Source: an uncultured Nitratifractor sp.
Lineage (GTDB): Bacteria > Campylobacterota > Campylobacteria > Campylobacterales > Sulfurovaceae
Direction of reading: 5' to 3'
NCBI GenBank assembly: GCA_913054475.1
Contig: CAJXJF010000013.1
Location: 1-32,237, forward strand
DNA length: 32,237 nt
Shown in pieces: positions 127 through 29,053 of the stretch; position 1 is the first letter of the stretch; each line of letters starts with the position of its first letter. The notes below the pieces were generated by a model. That model searched no databases, was not told the origin of the DNA, and saw only the letters and a list, made by a program, of their open reading frames with translations. The position numbers and the translations under genes are program-made.

Positions 127-2295
127 TTATGAAGATTTAAGTGGCATTGAATGTATGATCTGTATTTGTATATCGGAAGATACTTCCGCTATACCATTTT
201 TTAATTCTATCAGTTTTTCTATTGAAACAGCGTCGTTGAATTCGATTTCTAAATCTTGAACACCCGGAAGCAGATAAGCCTCGTAGTTGGATGGAAATCC
301 GATATTGTCCATTACACTTTTCCAATTTGAATCTAATTGCAATCTGATTTTGAATCTAATTTTTGTATCGGAATCGTTATCGTATAGAGGAGTATTAGCT
401 TTCGGATTTCCTGAATACACCACTATCGGGTGGGTTCTTTGAATATCGATTTCCGATGATTTACTCGATGATGCGTTTGCAAAATGCTTTTCGATCTTCC
501 AGATATCGTCTATAGTAATAGAGTTGAAATATATAAGATAATCCTTCGGGCCAAGCATTTTGTATATCTCTATCTTTATCTTTTCGTGATTAAGTCCTAT
601 GGCCTTTATTTTATTTTCAAGTTTTTCCAATTTATTCGTTATATCATTAGTGTTACAATTATCCTTGAAACCCACGAAGAGCAAAAGATCAAAAACGGCG
701 TTGTCGCTCTCTTCGTGGATGCCCATCTCTTTCCATTTAACAAGAGAATATTTCCTTTCGTAATAGCTGCCATCATCGCTTTGATTATTAGATGAAGATA
801 TCTTATTTTTTATTTCTTCAAGCCCATCTTTCTCTTCTAAACTCATAAAATTATATATTCCAAATACCATTTTTTTGCCATTATTTATCATTTTTGAAAC
901 AAAATCTTTTTCTGCTTTTCGAAGATTTACTTTGTATAGATGCAAAACATAAGGTTTGCAGCACCCATCTTCTGATTTTTCATCTATCAAGTATCTTCTA
1001 AAAAGACTTTTATGAGGTATTTGATCGTTTTTTAGAGATTCGATTTTTTTATTCCAGAAATTGCAGTATGCTTTTGTGATTTTATCTTCCCGACTATCTC
1101 CCCCCTTCTTCTTGGGCAAAATATCGTCATCGGCAAAATCTTCGAGAGACTCTATGATTTTTACAGTTAAATTCGTTATGGCATCGCTAAAATCTCTATA
1201 CTCTCTTCTATATATTTCGGATACTCTATATTTCTCCTCGAGTTTATCAAAAATGGCTCTTATAAGATAAGTGCCGATTGATAGAGGTTCTTCGGAGAGA
1301 TTCTTTTCGGAAACTCTCTTTTCCATCAAATCAAAAAGAACGAAGAGGCGAATCAACGCACTTGCAGCTTTGTCCAGTCCACTAAGGGGGCATAATCCGG
1401 GAGAACGATAATCTGCAATCGGATCGTAAAAAAACTCTTTGGCCAACCCTACGCCCGCTATCTCCTGAAAGGCGGCGTAGAGATAGGACTCTTCGTGCAG
1501 ATTGAAGGCAAAGATGTCCGATGCTATCTCTTCAGCAAGATTTTCCAAATCGGAGATAACACCTCTTGCATATTCATTTTTTGATAAGGTTTCAAATATT
1601 TTTCTCTTTATCTCCATAATCTTCGTTTTGTCGTTTTTCAAGAGCAAATGCCCAATCTCATGTGCTATTATTGGCAGAATACTTACGAGGTCATGATGAT
1701 AGAAGGAGAGTCTGATATAGTTTGCAGAAGTATTCCTGTCCTCTATGGAGCCGCTTTTGATATTAAAAAATTCATCATAAGCCCAATAGAAGAGGATGGT
1801 TGGCGTACTGCCGTCTTCGGACTTTCCAAAATACATCTTGAAGATTTCGTTGTAATAGGTCTGTAAAATATCGGTAAATGCTTTACTGGAAAAACGCTTG
1901 TTTATCTTAGGATAAGGTATATATTGGTTTAGATTGTCTTCCAAAAGCTGAAAAGTCTTGAAGCCGACATTCTCGAGAAATTTTTGAGTACTTTTGGCAA
2001 TTTCCCTGAAGACATCATAATACAAAAGGGCTTCAAATTCATCGACATTTTCCATATGAGAGAAGAGGCTTTCATATTTCTTATTGAATTTTGTTTGATT
2101 GAGCTCTAAATTTTTAAACAGGACTTCACATGTCTTTTTAATATCAAAGCAATCACCTTCTGATTCGTTTATACCAGCCATCTTATAGAAGCTCAATATC
2201 TTCTCTAAATTGTTCATTTCTTTGTTAAGCACTTCTGCCTTTTCATACATGGCCGCTTTGAAAAAAGTCTTTATATCACTTATATTATCAGACAT
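127..2295 (-). CDS. Uncharacterised protein with HEIGH zinc-metallopeptidase motif
   Basis: A 722-residue protein with no family I recognise over its full length. Around residues 212-216 it has HEIGH (HExxH), the two-histidine plus catalytic-glutamate signature of zincin metallopeptidases. Some 40 residues later the helix NLAEEIASDIFAF supplies an acidic third-ligand candidate (E255 or E256, then D260), the layout of gluzincin and IrrE-like domains. The first 150 residues look helical and charged. The C-terminal 300 residues contain alternating strands and charged helices and could be a sensor or partner-binding part. No signal peptide or clear membrane helix is seen, so a cytoplasmic protein is inferred. 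The ATG overlaps the end of the upstream membrane-protein gene by eight bases and has a GAAAGGTG binding site, so the two are probably translationally coupled. Base composition is clearly more AT-rich than rpoC next door, suggesting acquisition. Confidence 0.7.
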   Translation of the reverse strand: MSDNISDIKTFFKAAMYEKAEVLNKEMNNLEKILSFYKMAGINESEGDCFDIKKTCEVLFKNLELNQTKFNKKYESLFSHMENVDEFEALLYYDVFREIAKSTQKFLENVGFKTFQLLEDNLNQYIPYPKINKRFSSKAFTDILQTYYNEIFKMYFGKSEDGSTPTILFYWAYDEFFNIKSGSIEDRNTSANYIRLSFYHHDLVSILPIIAHEIGHLLLKNDKTKIMEIKRKIFETLSKNEYARGVISDLENLAEEIASDIFAFNLHEESYLYAAFQEIAGVGLAKEFFYDPIADYRSPGLCPLSGLDKAASALIRLFVLFDLMEKRVSEKNLSEEPLSIGTYLIRAIFDKLEEKYRVSEIYRREYRDFSDAITNLTVKIIESLEDFADDDILPKKKGGDSREDKITKAYCNFWNKKIESLKNDQIPHKSLFRRYLIDEKSEDGCCKPYVLHLYKVNLRKAEKDFVSKMINNGKKMVFGIYNFMSLEEKDGLEEIKNKISSSNNQSDDGSYYERKYSLVKWKEMGIHEESDNAVFDLLLFVGFKDNCNTNDITNKLEKLENKIKAIGLNHEKIKIEIYKMLGPKDYLIYFNSITIDDIWKIEKHFANASSSKSSEIDIQRTHPIVVYSGNPKANTPLYDNDSDTKIRFKIRLQLDSNWKSVMDNIGFPSNYEAYLLPGVQDLEIEFNDAVSIEKLIELKNGIAEVSSDIQIQIIHSMPLKSS

Positions 2296-3331
2296 CTACA
2301 CCTTTCAATTCATATTTGACAGATGTTGCATTGCTCTCAATCGATAAAACTGTTTTCTTAGAAGAGGGGTTGTCCAGTTGCATGACAATCATGGTAATTA
2401 GAATCAATAAAATATTTACAATAGTGCCTATATCCAGAGGAGGAGCAAAATAGTCGATTTTTGAAAAATCCTCTTTTTTCTCTTTTGTTTTATCTTTCGA
2501 ATCATAACTCACATTGATTCTTTTGTGAATCACTCTATAAGATATCTTTTCTAAAAGTTTTCTATCATCTATAAGTATGCTATCTACACCTATTGATTTC
2601 TTGCTTTCCATAATGTTAATCACTCTTTTATACAAAATAGAGTCTTTATGGTATTGCCTGACAAATACAAGAAAGAATATCAAGACTATAGATTCATCTA
2701 TCACGAAATTCCAGACGGTTCCTTGAAGAAAGGTATCGAATAAAGTTCTATGTATAATTATCAGCGGCAATGCCATAACTATAAAAGAGACAAGCGGCCA
2801 TGTGGAGACAAAAAGAGAATTTTCATAAAGAGCGTCGTTTATCGATATGCGGGCAAACAGTGATTCCAATTTATTGTTTATTTTTTCCGAAGGATTCGTA
2901 ACCGTGAATATATAGTATATGGGGGAGAAATTTTTAAGCATTTTGAATCGATCACTCTCGATACTCAGTTCATAGATATGTCTTTCAATCAGATTTTCGA
3001 TCTTGTCACCAAGTATAAGTACATCGTTATAGCGGAAAACCATAGGGCGTAATCCTATAAAATTCGCATAGTATATTTTTGAAATCTCCCAGATACATTT
3101 ATAGTACAAGATGAAAAATAGTAAAAGAGTCAAAGAGATGATTTTGATTGGATCTACCGATGTATTAAAGAACAGAAAGATACAAATGTAAAGCATGGGA
3201 ATTAATGCATCTCTTTTACCGCATCTCTCTTCTTTCAGGGAGCAAATCAGATCTCGAAAATTGGAGTCATTTGTCTTTTTTTTATCTTGTCGCTCCGAAA
3301 AAAACGAGAACAATACCCTATTCTTGTGCAC
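2288..3331 (-). CDS. Unknown five-helix membrane protein
   Basis: A 347-residue protein without a recognised domain. Hydrophobic segments at about 42-56, 62-78, 173-193, 212-226 and 302-318 predict an inner-membrane protein with about five spanning helices. The 94-residue loop between helices 2 and 3, and the charged, lysine-rich segment at about 227-295, are the likely soluble parts. The start is GTG with AAGGGAAG four bases upstream. An in-frame TAG lies about 14 codons above it, so there is no room for an earlier ATG; an internal ATG at residue 46 would delete the basic N-terminus. It overlaps the metallopeptidase-like gene downstream by eight bases, which suggests the two products work together at the membrane. 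Composition is AT-rich like its partner. Confidence 0.65.
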   Translation of the reverse strand: MHKNRVLFSFFSERQDKKKTNDSNFRDLICSLKEERCGKRDALIPMLYICIFLFFNTSVDPIKIISLTLLLFFILYYKCIWEISKIYYANFIGLRPMVFRYNDVLILGDKIENLIERHIYELSIESDRFKMLKNFSPIYYIFTVTNPSEKINNKLESLFARISINDALYENSLFVSTWPLVSFIVMALPLIIIHRTLFDTFLQGTVWNFVIDESIVLIFFLVFVRQYHKDSILYKRVINIMESKKSIGVDSILIDDRKLLEKISYRVIHKRINVSYDSKDKTKEKKEDFSKIDYFAPPLDIGTIVNILLILITMIVMQLDNPSSKKTVLSIESNATSVKYELKGVDV

Positions 3332-20014: not shown

Positions 20015-20112
20015 ATTTTATCCTTCTTTGTCTTGAAATAGGGCAGGATTTTATCCAAAATTGTTTAAAGTGAGTTTAAGTATGCTAAAGACAAATCGAT
20101 ATCGTTTTTGGT

Positions 20113-20118
20113 TACAAT
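20113..20118 (+). promoter_or_regulatory. luxS promoter -10 box
   Basis: TACAAT, 24 bases before the chosen luxS ATG in the 127-base gap between rplY and luxS. No convincing -35 is visible. Confidence 0.4.
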
Positions 20119-20141
20119 ACATCAAAAAGAGGAGTATTTGT

Positions 20142-20657
20142 ATGCCGATAGTGGATAGTTTTATGGTAGATCACACAAAAATGATCGCTCCAGCCGTGCG
20201 AGTGGCAAAGAACATGACCACCCCCTGCAAAGAGAGCATAACGGTCTTCGATCTCCGCTTCTGTCGTCCCAATGTAGAGATGATGGGAGAGAGGGGTACT
20301 CATACCATGGAACACCTCTTGGCCGGTTTCATGAGGGAGCACCTCGATTGCAATAGCGTAGAGATTATAGATATATCTCCCATGGGTTGCAGAACTGGTT
20401 TCTATATGTCCGTAATAGGTAAGCCCGACGAGAAGAGTGTGGCGGAGGCCTGGAGAGAATCAATGCGCGATATTCTTGCCGTAGAGTCGCAAGAGGATAT
20501 ACCCGAACTCAACATATATCAGTGTGGCAGTTGTAAAATGCACTCTCTCGAGGAGGCCAAGGAGATTGCCTCCTCTGTACTCGAGAGAGGTATAGGGATA
20601 ATGGATAACGAAAAGTTGAGGCTACAGATGAGTAAATTGGAAGATGCAAGATGTTGA
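20142..20657 (+). CDS. luxS: S-ribosylhomocysteine lyase (LuxS)
   Basis: LuxS, 171 residues, cleaves S-ribosylhomocysteine to homocysteine and DPD, the precursor of autoinducer-2, in the activated methyl cycle. The metal ligands H54 and H58 in HTMEH, glutamate 57, the catalytic cysteine in MGCRTGFY (C83) and the third ligand in YQCGSC (C128) are all present. I choose the ATG at 20142, with GAGGAG in front and the family start [11 protein letters not shown]; the frame is open 27 codons further up but without a binding site. Its stop overlaps the start of the next small gene by seven bases. Confidence 0.97.
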
Positions 20658-25332: not shown

Positions 25333-25848
25333 CTACGAAAGCAGGGCAGCCAGCGATTTGAAGAGCAGGAGATTCAACGCCCCCGCGGCCAGTGCGGCCA
25401 GTATATCGTCGAGCATCACACCCAGCCCACCCTCGAGATTTCTATCTATCCAACCGATTGTGGAGGGTTTGAGGATATCAAAGAGTCTGAACGAAAGGAA
25501 ACTTGCAAGCAGTACGGCAGGATAGAGATATGCCGACTCTATATAACTCTGCGCATATGATGTTATCACCATCGTCAACCATATACCGGCACTCTCGTCT
25601 ATCACTATCCAGGAAGGATCGTGTCGCCTAGCAATACTCTCGTAACGGTTCACCTCCACTATCCCTATGACGGTGACGGCGAAAGTTAGCATGAAGAGGC
25701 TTTGTGCCCCCAGATAGAAGAGTACGAGCGCACCTACGGGCATGGATGCGAGCGTACCGACCGTACCGGGGGCCTTCGGCGCGAAGCCGGAACCAAAAAA
25801 ACTCAAAAAGAGCCTCCGTATCGTAGATATCCCTTCTTCTTTGTCCAC
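25333..25848 (-). CDS. pgpA: Phosphatidylglycerophosphatase A
   Basis: PgpA, 171 residues, dephosphorylates phosphatidylglycerophosphate to phosphatidylglycerol in the inner membrane. The start segment FFGSGFAPKAPGTVGTLAS, the WIVIDESAGIWLTM motif and FLSFRLFDILKPSTIGWIDR are family signatures; several hydrophobic helices span the membrane. The start codon is GTG with AGGAGAG in front. It is the last gene of the ispDF-regulator-sat operon and converges on truB with only 24 bases between the stops. Confidence 0.93.
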   Translation of the reverse strand: MDKEEGISTIRRLFLSFFGSGFAPKAPGTVGTLASMPVGALVLFYLGAQSLFMLTFAVTVIGIVEVNRYESIARRHDPSWIVIDESAGIWLTMVITSYAQSYIESAYLYPAVLLASFLSFRLFDILKPSTIGWIDRNLEGGLGVMLDDILAALAAGALNLLLFKSLAALLS

Positions 25849-25873: not shown

Positions 25874-27067
25874 TTATGTAAGTGAGCTCGTCTGATAGAG
25901 CATCATCAGCTTCTTATAGAACTGCTCGTCGCTCTTCTTTTCCAGCAGACCCGAACTTGGCATGAGGGAGTAGTATAGCTCCTGCAGATGTTCGAAACGG
26001 TTCGGAAAGAGTGCGGCTATTATATTGGCCGATATCTCCTTGCGCACCAGTATCGTAGGCGGAAGGATACCGTTTTGTATCAGTGTCATTATGGATTGCG
26101 AATGGTAGTGTATATGATGGTGCTGTCCGTGCGGACAGGTACGGCTACTAACCAGTGTACGGCAGGTATCGCAATATACATACTCGTCGACTGTCTTTAT
26201 CTCGATATCGATATCGCTCAATCTGTCGAAGATGGAGTTGAGTCTGTTCTGATCGTAGTATAGCCCGAGTCCCGCATGGTTCCTGCCTATTATCAGTTCG
26301 TTGCAGCCGTAGTTTCTCGCCAGCAGCGCATCGAGTATCAGTTCGTTGCAGCCCGCGAAGATGTAGCTGTTCTCAAAAGGCACCACAATCACCCTGTTTC
26401 TGGGCAGAAAATTATCTATGAAGAGGTTGAGCGCATTGAGCCTGATATCGTATCTGAGCCCCTCGTTGGTAAAGGGCTTCCTCAAAAAGAGAACCACAAT
26501 ATCGGCTTCGCTGATACTCTGACGAATCATACGCTCGTGCGCCCTGTTTATGGGATTGGCCGCCAGCACCATAGAAGCTATTCTCTTGGCTCCCGTACGG
26601 CGTATTATCTGATTGACTCTACTAATGGTATCTCTTATGAGAGGATAGTTGACGCGATACTCCCCGCTTACGGCCATATCTCCCAGTCTGGCCAGCGTAT
26701 TTCTCACACCGGGATGAGACGGGTCGGAAGTGCCGTAGATATGCTGTAGCCTCGTGGAGGGATCTATTTCAAAAACCTCTTCTACCTTCAACTCTCCGAC
26801 TTTACTCCCCTCTGAGACTAGATCGACAATCTCACCCACTTCGAGAGCTTCGAGTACCTTTTTGTTTCTCCTGCCCGTAGGTGCAAGTATGAAAGAGAAG
26901 GGGAAAGGAACACCTTTGTAAACCTTTTTGCTATCCACCTCCCTTGCGGTCGCTTCGTTCATCAATCCCGTCACGGGAGCGAGCAGCCCCTCCTGTACGA
27001 GGGCGAGAGTGGAGAGAGCCTCCGTATCTATATAGAGTGCTTTACTGTTTCTTTTTGAAGAGATCAT
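25874..27067 (-). CDS. ATP-sulfurylase-like protein with degenerate active site
   Basis: A 397-residue relative of sulfate adenylyltransferase (Sat), which makes APS from ATP and sulfate. The N-terminal PUA-like domain (GLLAPVTGLMNEA, then PFPFSFILAP), a GRNHAGLG motif (261-268, normally GRDHAG) and a zinc cluster (C299, C302, C311 and nearby histidines) are present. The key motif, normally QTRNPxHRAH, reads LAANPINRAH (168-177). The glutamine, threonine, arginine and first histidine are lost, and the arginine and histidine normally hold sulfate and ATP. It is therefore probably not a working sulfurylase. Relatives such as Cj1609 are annotated as putative sulfate adenylyltransferase. No APS kinase, APS reductase or sulfate transporter genes lie nearby. 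It starts inside the regulator gene (26-base overlap) with GAGGA in front. Confidence 0.8.
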   Translation of the reverse strand: MISSKRNSKALYIDTEALSTLALVQEGLLAPVTGLMNEATAREVDSKKVYKGVPFPFSFILAPTGRRNKKVLEALEVGEIVDLVSEGSKVGELKVEEVFEIDPSTRLQHIYGTSDPSHPGVRNTLARLGDMAVSGEYRVNYPLIRDTISRVNQIIRRTGAKRIASMVLAANPINRAHERMIRQSISEADIVVLFLRKPFTNEGLRYDIRLNALNLFIDNFLPRNRVIVVPFENSYIFAGCNELILDALLARNYGCNELIIGRNHAGLGLYYDQNRLNSIFDRLSDIDIEIKTVDEYVYCDTCRTLVSSRTCPHGQHHHIHYHSQSIMTLIQNGILPPTILVRKEISANIIAALFPNRFEHLQELYYSLMPSSGLLEKKSDEQFYKKLMMLYQTSSLT

Positions 27068-27929
27068 ATTTTTTCCTCTTTTCCCAGAGACTTTTTCTCG
27101 AGATTCCGAGCTTCTTGCTCAACTCCGTATCAGGGAAGCGGTACTGGAAAGTACGCACGATATACTGCACATACTCATCTATCGTCAATATTTCGTTCTG
27201 GTCGTAGAGTTTGCTGCCCGAGCCCAGAGTAATCGTCTCATACGGCGTCTCCACACTCTCGGATGTATCGGTGAGAATGAACTTCTTGCCCTCGAGCAGT
27301 CCGTAGAGCTGCTCCCTTTCACTCTTTTTCAACTTCTCCAGATGGATGATATAGCCTATGCGGTCACTCTCGAGAGCCTCGACCTTCTCCTCCCACTCGT
27401 CATCCTGCAAAGAGATGAAACGAAGAATATTTCTTTTGAAGCAATTCATCTTCATAGCTACTTTGTCGGCCACTCTCTGGTAGTTGGTCCGTATGACGAC
27501 CGGCAGGCGGATATCCTGTGGTCGAATACCACACTCTATCTCTTCGTAGAGATTCCCGAGATACTCTTCGTAGAAGCTGTTTCTCTCCTGATGGAGTCTA
27601 TAAAGATGGTAGTGCTCTATCTTCCTTACCAACTCCTCTATCATAAAGGGTTTCACGATATAGTCTCTCGCTCCTCTTTTCAGAGGTTCACCGACGGTAT
27701 CGTTGTTGATATAGCTGACCATCAGAATGATATTTTTGTCGCTGAATTTCTCTATCAGAGGCAAAAAATTCTGCCCGGGCAGATTGGTGGAGAGCAGATA
27801 TACATCCGCTTCACTCTCCATAGCCTCTCTCACCGAACTGTATATCTCTGTATCGAAACTGTAGTCTCCAAGCTTCGAAGCGATACTTTGGGCCAGGTAG
27901 AGTTCGTTTTCGACTATGACTATCTTCAC
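27042..27929 (-). CDS. Atypical response regulator of the HP1021/CemR family
   Basis: A 295-residue regulator with an N-terminal receiver domain (1-115) and a C-terminal Fis-like helix-turn-helix (about 253-290, TELSKKLGISRKSLWEKRKK). The phospho-accepting aspartate is replaced by serine 47 (VYLLSTNLPG), while the acidic pocket is reduced to E7-N8-E9; the switch serine 72 and lysine 93 remain. This is the hallmark of H. pylori HP1021 and C. jejuni Cj1608 (CemR), phosphorylation-independent regulators of redox and energy metabolism. The neighbour ispDF confirms orthology, as HP1020 is also ispDF. The start is GTG, overlapping the ispDF stop as GTGA, with AAGGAGAG in front. No histidine kinase gene is nearby. 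Confidence 0.9.
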   Translation of the reverse strand: MKIVIVENELYLAQSIASKLGDYSFDTEIYSSVREAMESEADVYLLSTNLPGQNFLPLIEKFSDKNIILMVSYINNDTVGEPLKRGARDYIVKPFMIEELVRKIEHYHLYRLHQERNSFYEEYLGNLYEEIECGIRPQDIRLPVVIRTNYQRVADKVAMKMNCFKRNILRFISLQDDEWEEKVEALESDRIGYIIHLEKLKKSEREQLYGLLEGKKFILTDTSESVETPYETITLGSGSKLYDQNEILTIDEYVQYIVRTFQYRFPDTELSKKLGISRKSLWEKRKKYDLFKKKQ

Positions 27930-29053
27930 CTACTCTCTCCTTTCGTCCAGTCGAAATATCCGATGGTCGCCACGGCATATACACTGACCCCCTCTCCTCT
28001 TCCTATAAATCCCATCCCTTCGGAAGTGGTCGCTTTTATATTCACTCTCTGCACTCCTATTGCGAGAATATCGGCCACTCTCCTCCTCATCTCGCGCTTG
28101 TAGGGTGATAGTCTCGGGACTTCGGCCACTATCGTGATATCGCAACTGTATATATCCAAACCGTATCTTCTTATCTTCGAAACCGCCTCTTCGAGCAGGA
28201 GGGCGGAGTCCGCTCCCGCGTATCTGCTATCGCTGTCTGGGAAATGCTCTCCGATATCTCCCATTCCCGCCGCTCCGAGTATGGCGTCCGTCAGAGCGTG
28301 CAGAGCCACATCGCCGTCGCTATGGGCTCTGAAACCGAACTCGGCTTCAATCTCCACCCCGCACAGATACATCCGTCTGCCATCCTGGAAGGGGTGCGTA
28401 TCGATACCTATACCGCTGCGCTGTATCGAAGATGGGGCTTCGAGACAGGGGAGTCTGTGCGTATCTTCATATCTTGTGAGTTTATGTGCCACTCTGGAGC
28501 CTTCGACGAAGAGCAGAGTACCTCCGTAGGCGGCTATGGCGCTGCTCTCATCCGTAAACTCTCCCTTTTCGATAGCTTTTTGGAGTATCTCTCTTCTGCT
28601 CAGTTGAGGGGTCTGCACCATCCTCACTCTGGAGCGGTCGAGAAGTCTGTCTCCTTCGTACATCGTATCCACCGCCTCCAACACCGGGACGACACAATCG
28701 GCCTCTCCCGCTTTATGCAGGACTCTTTGCAACATTTGTAAATCCAGACAGCAACGGGCTACATCGTTTACGAGAATATATTCGCTCTCGCAATAGTTCA
28801 GAGCGTTGGCCAGCGACTCCTGACGACTTGCCCCTCCCTCCACGAAGGTATAGTCGGCAAAGAGCGACATCAGCTCCACCTCTTCGGCATCACCAGTCAC
28901 TATCGTTCGACAGAAGGGGAAGGCTTGGGAAAAATCCTCCGCCACCTTCAGCCACAATGGTCGCTCCCCCTGATAGAGCCACTGCTTTTTGACCGGAAAG
29001 GCGAAACGACTCGACGAGCCTGCCGCCAACAGTACAAGTGTAATATCTTTCAT
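27926..29053 (-). CDS. ispDF: Bifunctional IspD/IspF isoprenoid enzyme
   Basis: A 375-residue fusion of IspD (about 1-205, MEP cytidylyltransferase) and IspF (about 213-375, 2-C-methyl-D-erythritol 2,4-cyclodiphosphate synthase) of the MEP isoprenoid pathway. The IspD nucleotide loop LLAAGSSSRF and VNDVAR, and the IspF metal motifs GIGIDTHPF and HSDGDVALHALTDAILGA are clear, as is the C-terminal KATTSEGMGFIGRGEG. The fusion is typical of Campylobacterota. It is the first gene of an operon with the atypical regulator, the Sat-like protein and pgpA. The ATG at 29053 has only a weak binding site. Confidence 0.97.
   Translation of the reverse strand: MKDITLVLLAAGSSSRFAFPVKKQWLYQGERPLWLKVAEDFSQAFPFCRTIVTGDAEEVELMSLFADYTFVEGGASRQESLANALNYCESEYILVNDVARCCLDLQMLQRVLHKAGEADCVVPVLEAVDTMYEGDRLLDRSRVRMVQTPQLSRREILQKAIEKGEFTDESSAIAAYGGTLLFVEGSRVAHKLTRYEDTHRLPCLEAPSSIQRSGIGIDTHPFQDGRRMYLCGVEIEAEFGFRAHSDGDVALHALTDAILGAAGMGDIGEHFPDSDSRYAGADSALLLEEAVSKIRRYGLDIYSCDITIVAEVPRLSPYKREMRRRVADILAIGVQRVNIKATTSEGMGFIGRGEGVSVYAVATIGYFDWTKGESR

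Follow-up and report, generated by a model that had tools for sequence, protein, structure and literature searches.

The protein encoded at positions 25874–27067 of the window (the whole 32,237-nucleotide stretch of contig CAJXJF010000013.1 from an uncultured Nitratifractor sp. of the Campylobacterota) is ATP-sulfurylase-like, and the alignment of its orthologues indicates that the label of ATP sulfurylase (Sat) is probably wrong. This protein, here termed SatL, may be a retired sulfurylase acting mainly by binding through its zinc/histidine part and C-terminal tail, possibly together with a remnant nucleotide pocket, a reading given slightly less than an even chance of being correct. The gene and its first domain are located as follows.

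25874–27067, minus strand: satL, ATP-sulfurylase-like open reading frame (ORF) of the Cj1609 type, 397 amino acids (aa) without an internal stop.
26657–27055, minus strand: domain I of SatL, PUA_2-like, residues 5–137, placed by Pfam and the structural model.

SatL matches the Pfam families ATP-sulfurylase (PF01747, 187.5 bits) and PUA_2 (65.4 bits) above both curated cut-offs, while it falls short of the two NCBIfam cut-offs for Sat (191 vs 387 bits and 130 vs 323 bits). Across SatL proteins, scores range from 82 to 191 bits against the 387-bit cut-off, while a genuine Campylobacterota Sat reaches 421.8 bits and the genuine Sat L055 passes both NCBIfam cut-offs. By sequence, SatL is closest among solved structures to the ATP sulfurylases 1v47 and 8a8d, which are also the top PDB matches of an AlphaFold2 model built from 32 sequences (mean predicted local distance difference test score, pLDDT, 79; predicted template modelling score, pTM, 0.79), with E values of ~1e-24 to 1e-25 and template modelling (TM) scores of 0.69–0.80 (Foldseek against 8a8d: E 1.2e-25, TM 0.72/0.76). 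Domains I and II of the model are mostly confident. By these matches SatL has the ATP-sulfurylase fold, with the three domains and the Cys3His zinc site (C299, C302, C311 and H313, all invariant) of zinc-type Sats. Like the zinc-type Sats (Thermus thermophilus 1v47, Methanothermococcus 8a8d, Allochromatium 4dnx), which provide its best matches in sequence and fold, it contains a PUA-like domain I and a Rossmann-like domain II, and the zinc-bearing forms among them share the Cys3His site in domain III.

SatL differs from these enzymes in the active site, where four motifs are replaced, as found by alignment to solved Sats and to genuine Sats of the phylum:

26537–26566, minus strand: LAANPINRAH (residues 168–177), in place of QTRNPxHRAH.
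26459–26479, minus strand: KPFTNEG (residues 197–203), where genuine Sats have the mobile GxxKxxD loop.
26270–26287, minus strand: GRNHAG (residues 261–266), in place of GRDHAG, with the ribose-contacting glycine and histidine kept (alignment, with roles from PMC3779200).
26087–26107, minus strand: YHSQSIM (residues 321–327), in place of ISGTxxR.

In Allochromatium Sat, sulfate is bound by Gln199, Arg201 and the main chain of Ala299, the alpha-phosphate by Thr200, Arg201 (main chain) and Asn202, and the ribose by Gly295, Arg296 (main-chain oxygen) and His298, while the mobile GxxKxxD loop shuts over the active site; the RNP and GRD loops are termed strictly conserved (PMC3779200). In the window, the Gln, Thr and Arg of QTR are changed to Leu, Ala and Ala, and the first histidine of HxxH to Asn, with the second histidine, Asn171, Gly261 and His264 retained. 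The sample comprised 53 loci from genome contigs and further fetched loci, giving a SatL alignment of 117 loci which includes a few duplicates of one genome. None of these 117 keeps the sulfate-binding Gln or Arg (Ala stands at the Arg position in 102), whereas the QTRN motif is kept in 10/10 genuine Sats compared, five of them from the Campylobacterota. The aspartate of the GRD loop is replaced by Asn263 in the window (GRN) and the loop reads GQN or GKN in most other SatL; GxxKxxD is missing from all or nearly all members; SGT is replaced, and the arginine of SGTxxR is lost in 114/117 loci (kept in 3; Lys in 13). An initial annotation had reported the change from QTRNPxHRAH to LAANPINRAH and the loss of the sulfate-binding arginine, both of which hold, the loss extending to Gln and to the GRD, GxxKxxD and SGTxxR motifs; orthologues retaining the full motif, its own refuting condition, number 0/117. 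The loss of the first histidine, which it also noted, is not family-wide: 66 loci have His at this position, 47 have Asn and 3 have Thr, and as judged from the alignment the loss belongs to the lineage of the window and some others. Campylobacter-type SatL contains the motif FDPLHRAHE with both histidines present, unlike the clade of the window. An error of annotation or alignment at the motif is ruled out, as 117/117 loci and the fold search agree, and so is chance or sequencing error, given the presence of Q and R in 0/117 SatL vs 10/10 genuine Sats. No mention of the altered motif was found in the open-access literature.

Outside the catalytic motifs, two features of SatL are conserved:

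26102–26173, minus strand: zinc/histidine cluster CDTCRTLVSSRTCPHGQHHHIHYH (residues 299–322), from the alignment of 117 loci.
25877–26014, minus strand: C-terminal extension (residues 352–397, ~46 aa), from the alignment, with a low-confidence model.

The near-invariant pattern of the cluster is CxxC..CPHGxHHHxxY, where C299, C302, C311, P312, H313, G314, H318 and Y321 are invariant in 117/117 loci, while H316 and H317 occur in 116/117 and 115/117 (98–99%), respectively. Genuine Sats do not conserve the three extra histidines or the tyrosine, and the ~46-residue extension, common to SatL, is missing from the five genuine Sats of the Campylobacterota. Averaged over pairs from a spread of SatL, domain II is 42% identical, the tail 49%, domain III 59% and the zinc motif 66%; the five Campylobacterota genuine Sats rank the other way, with 66% for domain II and 53% for the zinc motif. 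By these alignments, the centre of conservation has shifted away from the catalytic domain and now lies in the zinc/histidine domain and the new C-terminal extension. Such near-invariance of added residues would also fit a second metal site, made up of the HHH cluster and the Cys3His zinc site together, which would make SatL a metal sensor, a metal donor or a new metalloenzyme. This is considered quite unlikely, as the cluster might serve structure alone or bind another protein, the zinc of genuine Sats is described as stabilising (PMC3779200, PMC10322725), and the gene cluster of satL contains no metal genes. Two SatL sequences (L114 and L117) carry low-complexity N-terminal extensions of ~200 residues. 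No fusion partner that could serve as a functional clue was found, the frames of 614 and 625 aa being longer only by low-complexity sequence at the N terminus.

The PF01747 domain is present in 238/298 Campylobacterota genomes (~80%). A genome-wide pattern scan, which reaches close relatives only, gave matches solely in Campylobacterota or relatives, and satL may be distributed more widely; a plasmid collection from outside the phylum yielded mostly genuine Sats. In a maximum-likelihood tree, all SatL form one clade (Shimodaira–Hasegawa-like approximate likelihood ratio test, SH-aLRT, 100) apart from the 10 genuine Sats (100). Within SatL, the members of each of the families f2, f4, f6, f8, f9 and f10 group together, which matches the expectation of vertical descent. 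The phylum-wide satL is, as judged from this tree, vertically inherited, and a recent horizontal gain is ruled out, as the tree follows the families. Pairwise ratios of nonsynonymous to synonymous substitution rates (dN/dS), taken from unsaturated pairs only, are 0.02–0.13, and satL is thus under purifying selection rather than drifting. A pseudogene is ruled out by this range together with the open frame and the retention across the phylum.

The distribution of satL is decoupled from that of CysD and CysH across the phylum. The genome of the window encodes a single PF01747 protein, SatL itself, and on another contig (G000:C54, locus L124:1-2271) a CysD match with an adjoining cysN, the heterodimeric ATP sulfurylase that has the activity implied by the satL annotation and is encoded separately in the same genome. 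The fold of CysDN is unrelated to that of Sat. The statement of the initial annotation that no other gene of sulfate assimilation is near holds for the window; the genome does contain this cysDN pair. A galE-like gene lies upstream of cysD on the same contig. One NIR_SIR gene is present in this genome, in which no cysH or other PAPS_reduct match over the cut-off was found, and sulfate activated by CysDN, with no reduction path evident, may be used for sulfation there. Genomes of f6 g12 contain CysD and CysH without a PF01747 gene, while those of f3 g8 carry satL with weak CysD/CysH (PF01507) matches at most. The presence of CysDN in SatL's own genome and the failure of satL to track CysD/CysH argue against a role of SatL in sulfate activation.

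Genuine Sats do occur in the Campylobacterota (L055–L059), four of them in genomes also carrying SatL, and all five keep QTRN, GRDHAG and S(G/A)TxxR. The five from other groups (Thermales, Bacilli, Sulfobacillus, Deinococcus and a cyanobacterium) keep QTRN, GxxKxxD, GRD and SGTxxR, and adjoin cysH or cysC, whereas satL lies in the cluster ispDF-cemR-satL-pgpA. That SatL is nevertheless a genuine ATP sulfurylase tolerating a divergent active site, as it is named in RefSeq and assumed for Sulfurimonas, would agree with its fold and family match and with its published annotation (PMC4584964, PMC4674564). Considering the decoupling from CysD/CysH and the genuine Sats found beside SatL in four genomes, this is regarded as very improbable.

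According to the retired-sulfurylase reading, SatL would descend from a zinc-type ATP sulfurylase in which sulfate activation was abandoned, and would work mainly via binding, not catalysis. Domain III and the C-terminal tail would carry the function through contact with a partner protein or a metal. An adenine nucleotide may still be bound, as a signal, in what remains of the adenosine pocket (Gly261, His264 and His177, retained by most lineages); the candidate partner may be encoded in the same cluster, namely CemR, PgpA or IspDF. This reading is supported by the loss of all sulfate-specific elements (as defined by the contacts in A. vinosum Sat, PMC3779200), the scores below the NCBIfam Sat cut-off, the inverted conservation and the wrecked nucleotide loops of some members, as well as by purifying selection, a single clade following taxonomy and the decoupling from sulfate assimilation. 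The wrecked loops are found in the Helicobacteraceae-type genera g18 and g47 (L112/L113 and L117/L121), where one or both have been lost and satL is kept, with motifs such as GQIFHKAHE, SDNTPN and SLGSSD beside a persisting CPHGxHxHIxY and tail.

Several observations weigh against this reading. The zinc segment (domain III) is modelled with moderate and the final 27 residues with low confidence. The second histidine of HxxH (His177), which the initial annotation had rightly described as kept along with the fold and the zinc cluster, is conserved in 113/117 loci, Gly261 in 104/117 and His264 in 108/117, while the newly conserved basic residues R179, R209 and K197 flank the old motifs; together these would point to catalysis on a new substrate rather than to a dead site. 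Moreover, three orthologues score slightly over the Pfam cut-off of a general nucleotidylyltransferase family (L085 for CTP_transf_like; L066 and L104 for Citrate_ly_lig), although SatL of the window scores under these cut-offs; a genuine Sat tested in the same way gave no CTP_transf_like or Citrate_ly_lig match over the cut-off. SatL may instead be a retasked nucleotidylyltransferase, transferring an adenylyl or other nucleotidyl group to a non-sulfate acceptor via HxxH with release of pyrophosphate (PPi), in an acceptor site rebuilt from R179, R209, K197 and the histidine cluster. This is a serious rival to the retired sulfurylase, though somewhat unlikely. The first histidine present in 66/117 loci, the FDPLHRAHE motif of the Campylobacter type, the high conservation of the new basic residues and the reported essentiality of Cj1609 (PMC10077673) are consistent with it, whereas the arginine of SGTxxR on the PPi side is lost from nearly all members, the clade of the window has Asn for the first histidine, g18 and g47 keep the gene after losing nucleotide loops, and the neighbouring genes suggest no acceptor beyond lipid and isoprenoid genes. 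The remodelled motif resembles that of HxGH nucleotidylyltransferases such as CitC, NadD and CoaD, to which Pfam and NCBIfam matches are weak; unlike in these enzymes, the match mostly covers 30–70 residues, the whole fold is that of Sat and TxxR is missing. The (H/T)xxH and TxxR pair is absent, as the window reads Asn-Arg-Ala-His without the arginine and most orthologues lack TxxR.

The genes flanking satL in the conserved order ispDF-cemR-satL-pgpA are as follows.

27926–29053, minus strand: ispDF, bifunctional isoprenoid enzyme, first in the cluster (neighbourhood; RefSeq naming in Sulfurovum mangrovi).
27042–27929, minus strand: CemR/HP1021-type response regulator (Pfam and neighbourhood comparison).
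25333–25848, minus strand: pgpA, phosphatidylglycerophosphatase A, last in the cluster (Pfam and neighbourhood).

The start of satL overlaps the end of cemR by 26 bases in the window. A cemR-type gene lies directly upstream in 109/117 loci, in agreement with the fixed place behind a redox and energy regulator initially noted; ispDF precedes cemR in most SatL loci, and pgpA is downstream of satL in 99/117, some loci ending at a contig edge. In satL-free lineages (f6 g12, f6 g40, f2 g33 and f2 g36), pgpA directly follows cemR, and satL can thus be cleanly lost. The CemR-type regulator persists without satL and is therefore not dependent on it; HP1021 is active in Helicobacter pylori (PMC10593804) and Cj1608/CemR governs energy metabolism (PMC11334517). 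In f6 g24 and g42, satL is relocated outside the cluster, and in L097 and L098 (f6) it is divergent from a queH-like gene and upstream of a small lipoprotein gene, neighbours which offer no consistent functional clue. In L094 (f4), satL and pgpA are separated by a phosphoribosyltransferase-like gene (L094:3199-3846), which likewise gives no consistent clue to SatL function; L096, also of f4, has an equally large gap at this place. The cluster recurs in the RefSeq entry of Sulfurovum mangrovi, where SatL bears the name sulfate adenylyltransferase; this locus (L144, NZ_CP087125.1) belongs to a 395 kb record labelled as a plasmid, and its annotated satL coding sequence stops short of the conserved C-terminal tail, the match continuing beyond it.

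Cj1609 resembles SatL in its position behind Cj1608 (CemR), and the Campylobacter-like members of f3 (L085–L087), which share the operon and the clade of other SatL, are equated with it by locus order and literature names, without sequence comparison to Cj1609 itself. Named a sulfate adenyltransferase, Cj1609 is reported as essential in C. jejuni and C. coli, while the Cj1609-type gene is not so reported in C. lari and C. hyointestinalis (PMC10077673); the word "polar" is absent from this paper, and a polar effect on pgpA, which lies downstream, could account for the reported essentiality. The Sulfurimonas homologue is called a Sat-type ATP sulfurylase and assigned to assimilation despite missing partner genes (PMC4584964), and a lone sat was judged conspicuous in another study (PMC4674564). 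From the sulfurylase label of satL, papers infer that Sulfurimonas and related bacteria activate sulfate. Should the sulfate site indeed be lost, these reconstructions of metabolism would be wrong, a conserved and sometimes essential protein would need a function other than that of its label, and the role of the ispDF-cemR-satL-pgpA cluster would become a directly testable question. A broader proposal, which is doubtful at present, is that SatL is a new type of accessory protein of the Campylobacterota built from a retired ATP sulfurylase and responsive to adenine nucleotides or metal, which is co-encoded with the energy/redox regulator CemR and the isoprenoid/phospholipid enzymes and is essential in some species by tying energy or metal state to these processes.

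Elsewhere in the window, two adjacent ORFs are located downstream of rpoC (127–3331, minus strand), encoding a 722 aa protein with a HEIGH metallopeptidase-like motif and a 347 aa membrane-like protein, neither of which matches a Pfam family over its cut-off. At 20061–20657 on the plus strand, LuxS (PF02664, 188.5 bits) is encoded, followed by a 103 aa ORF without a family.
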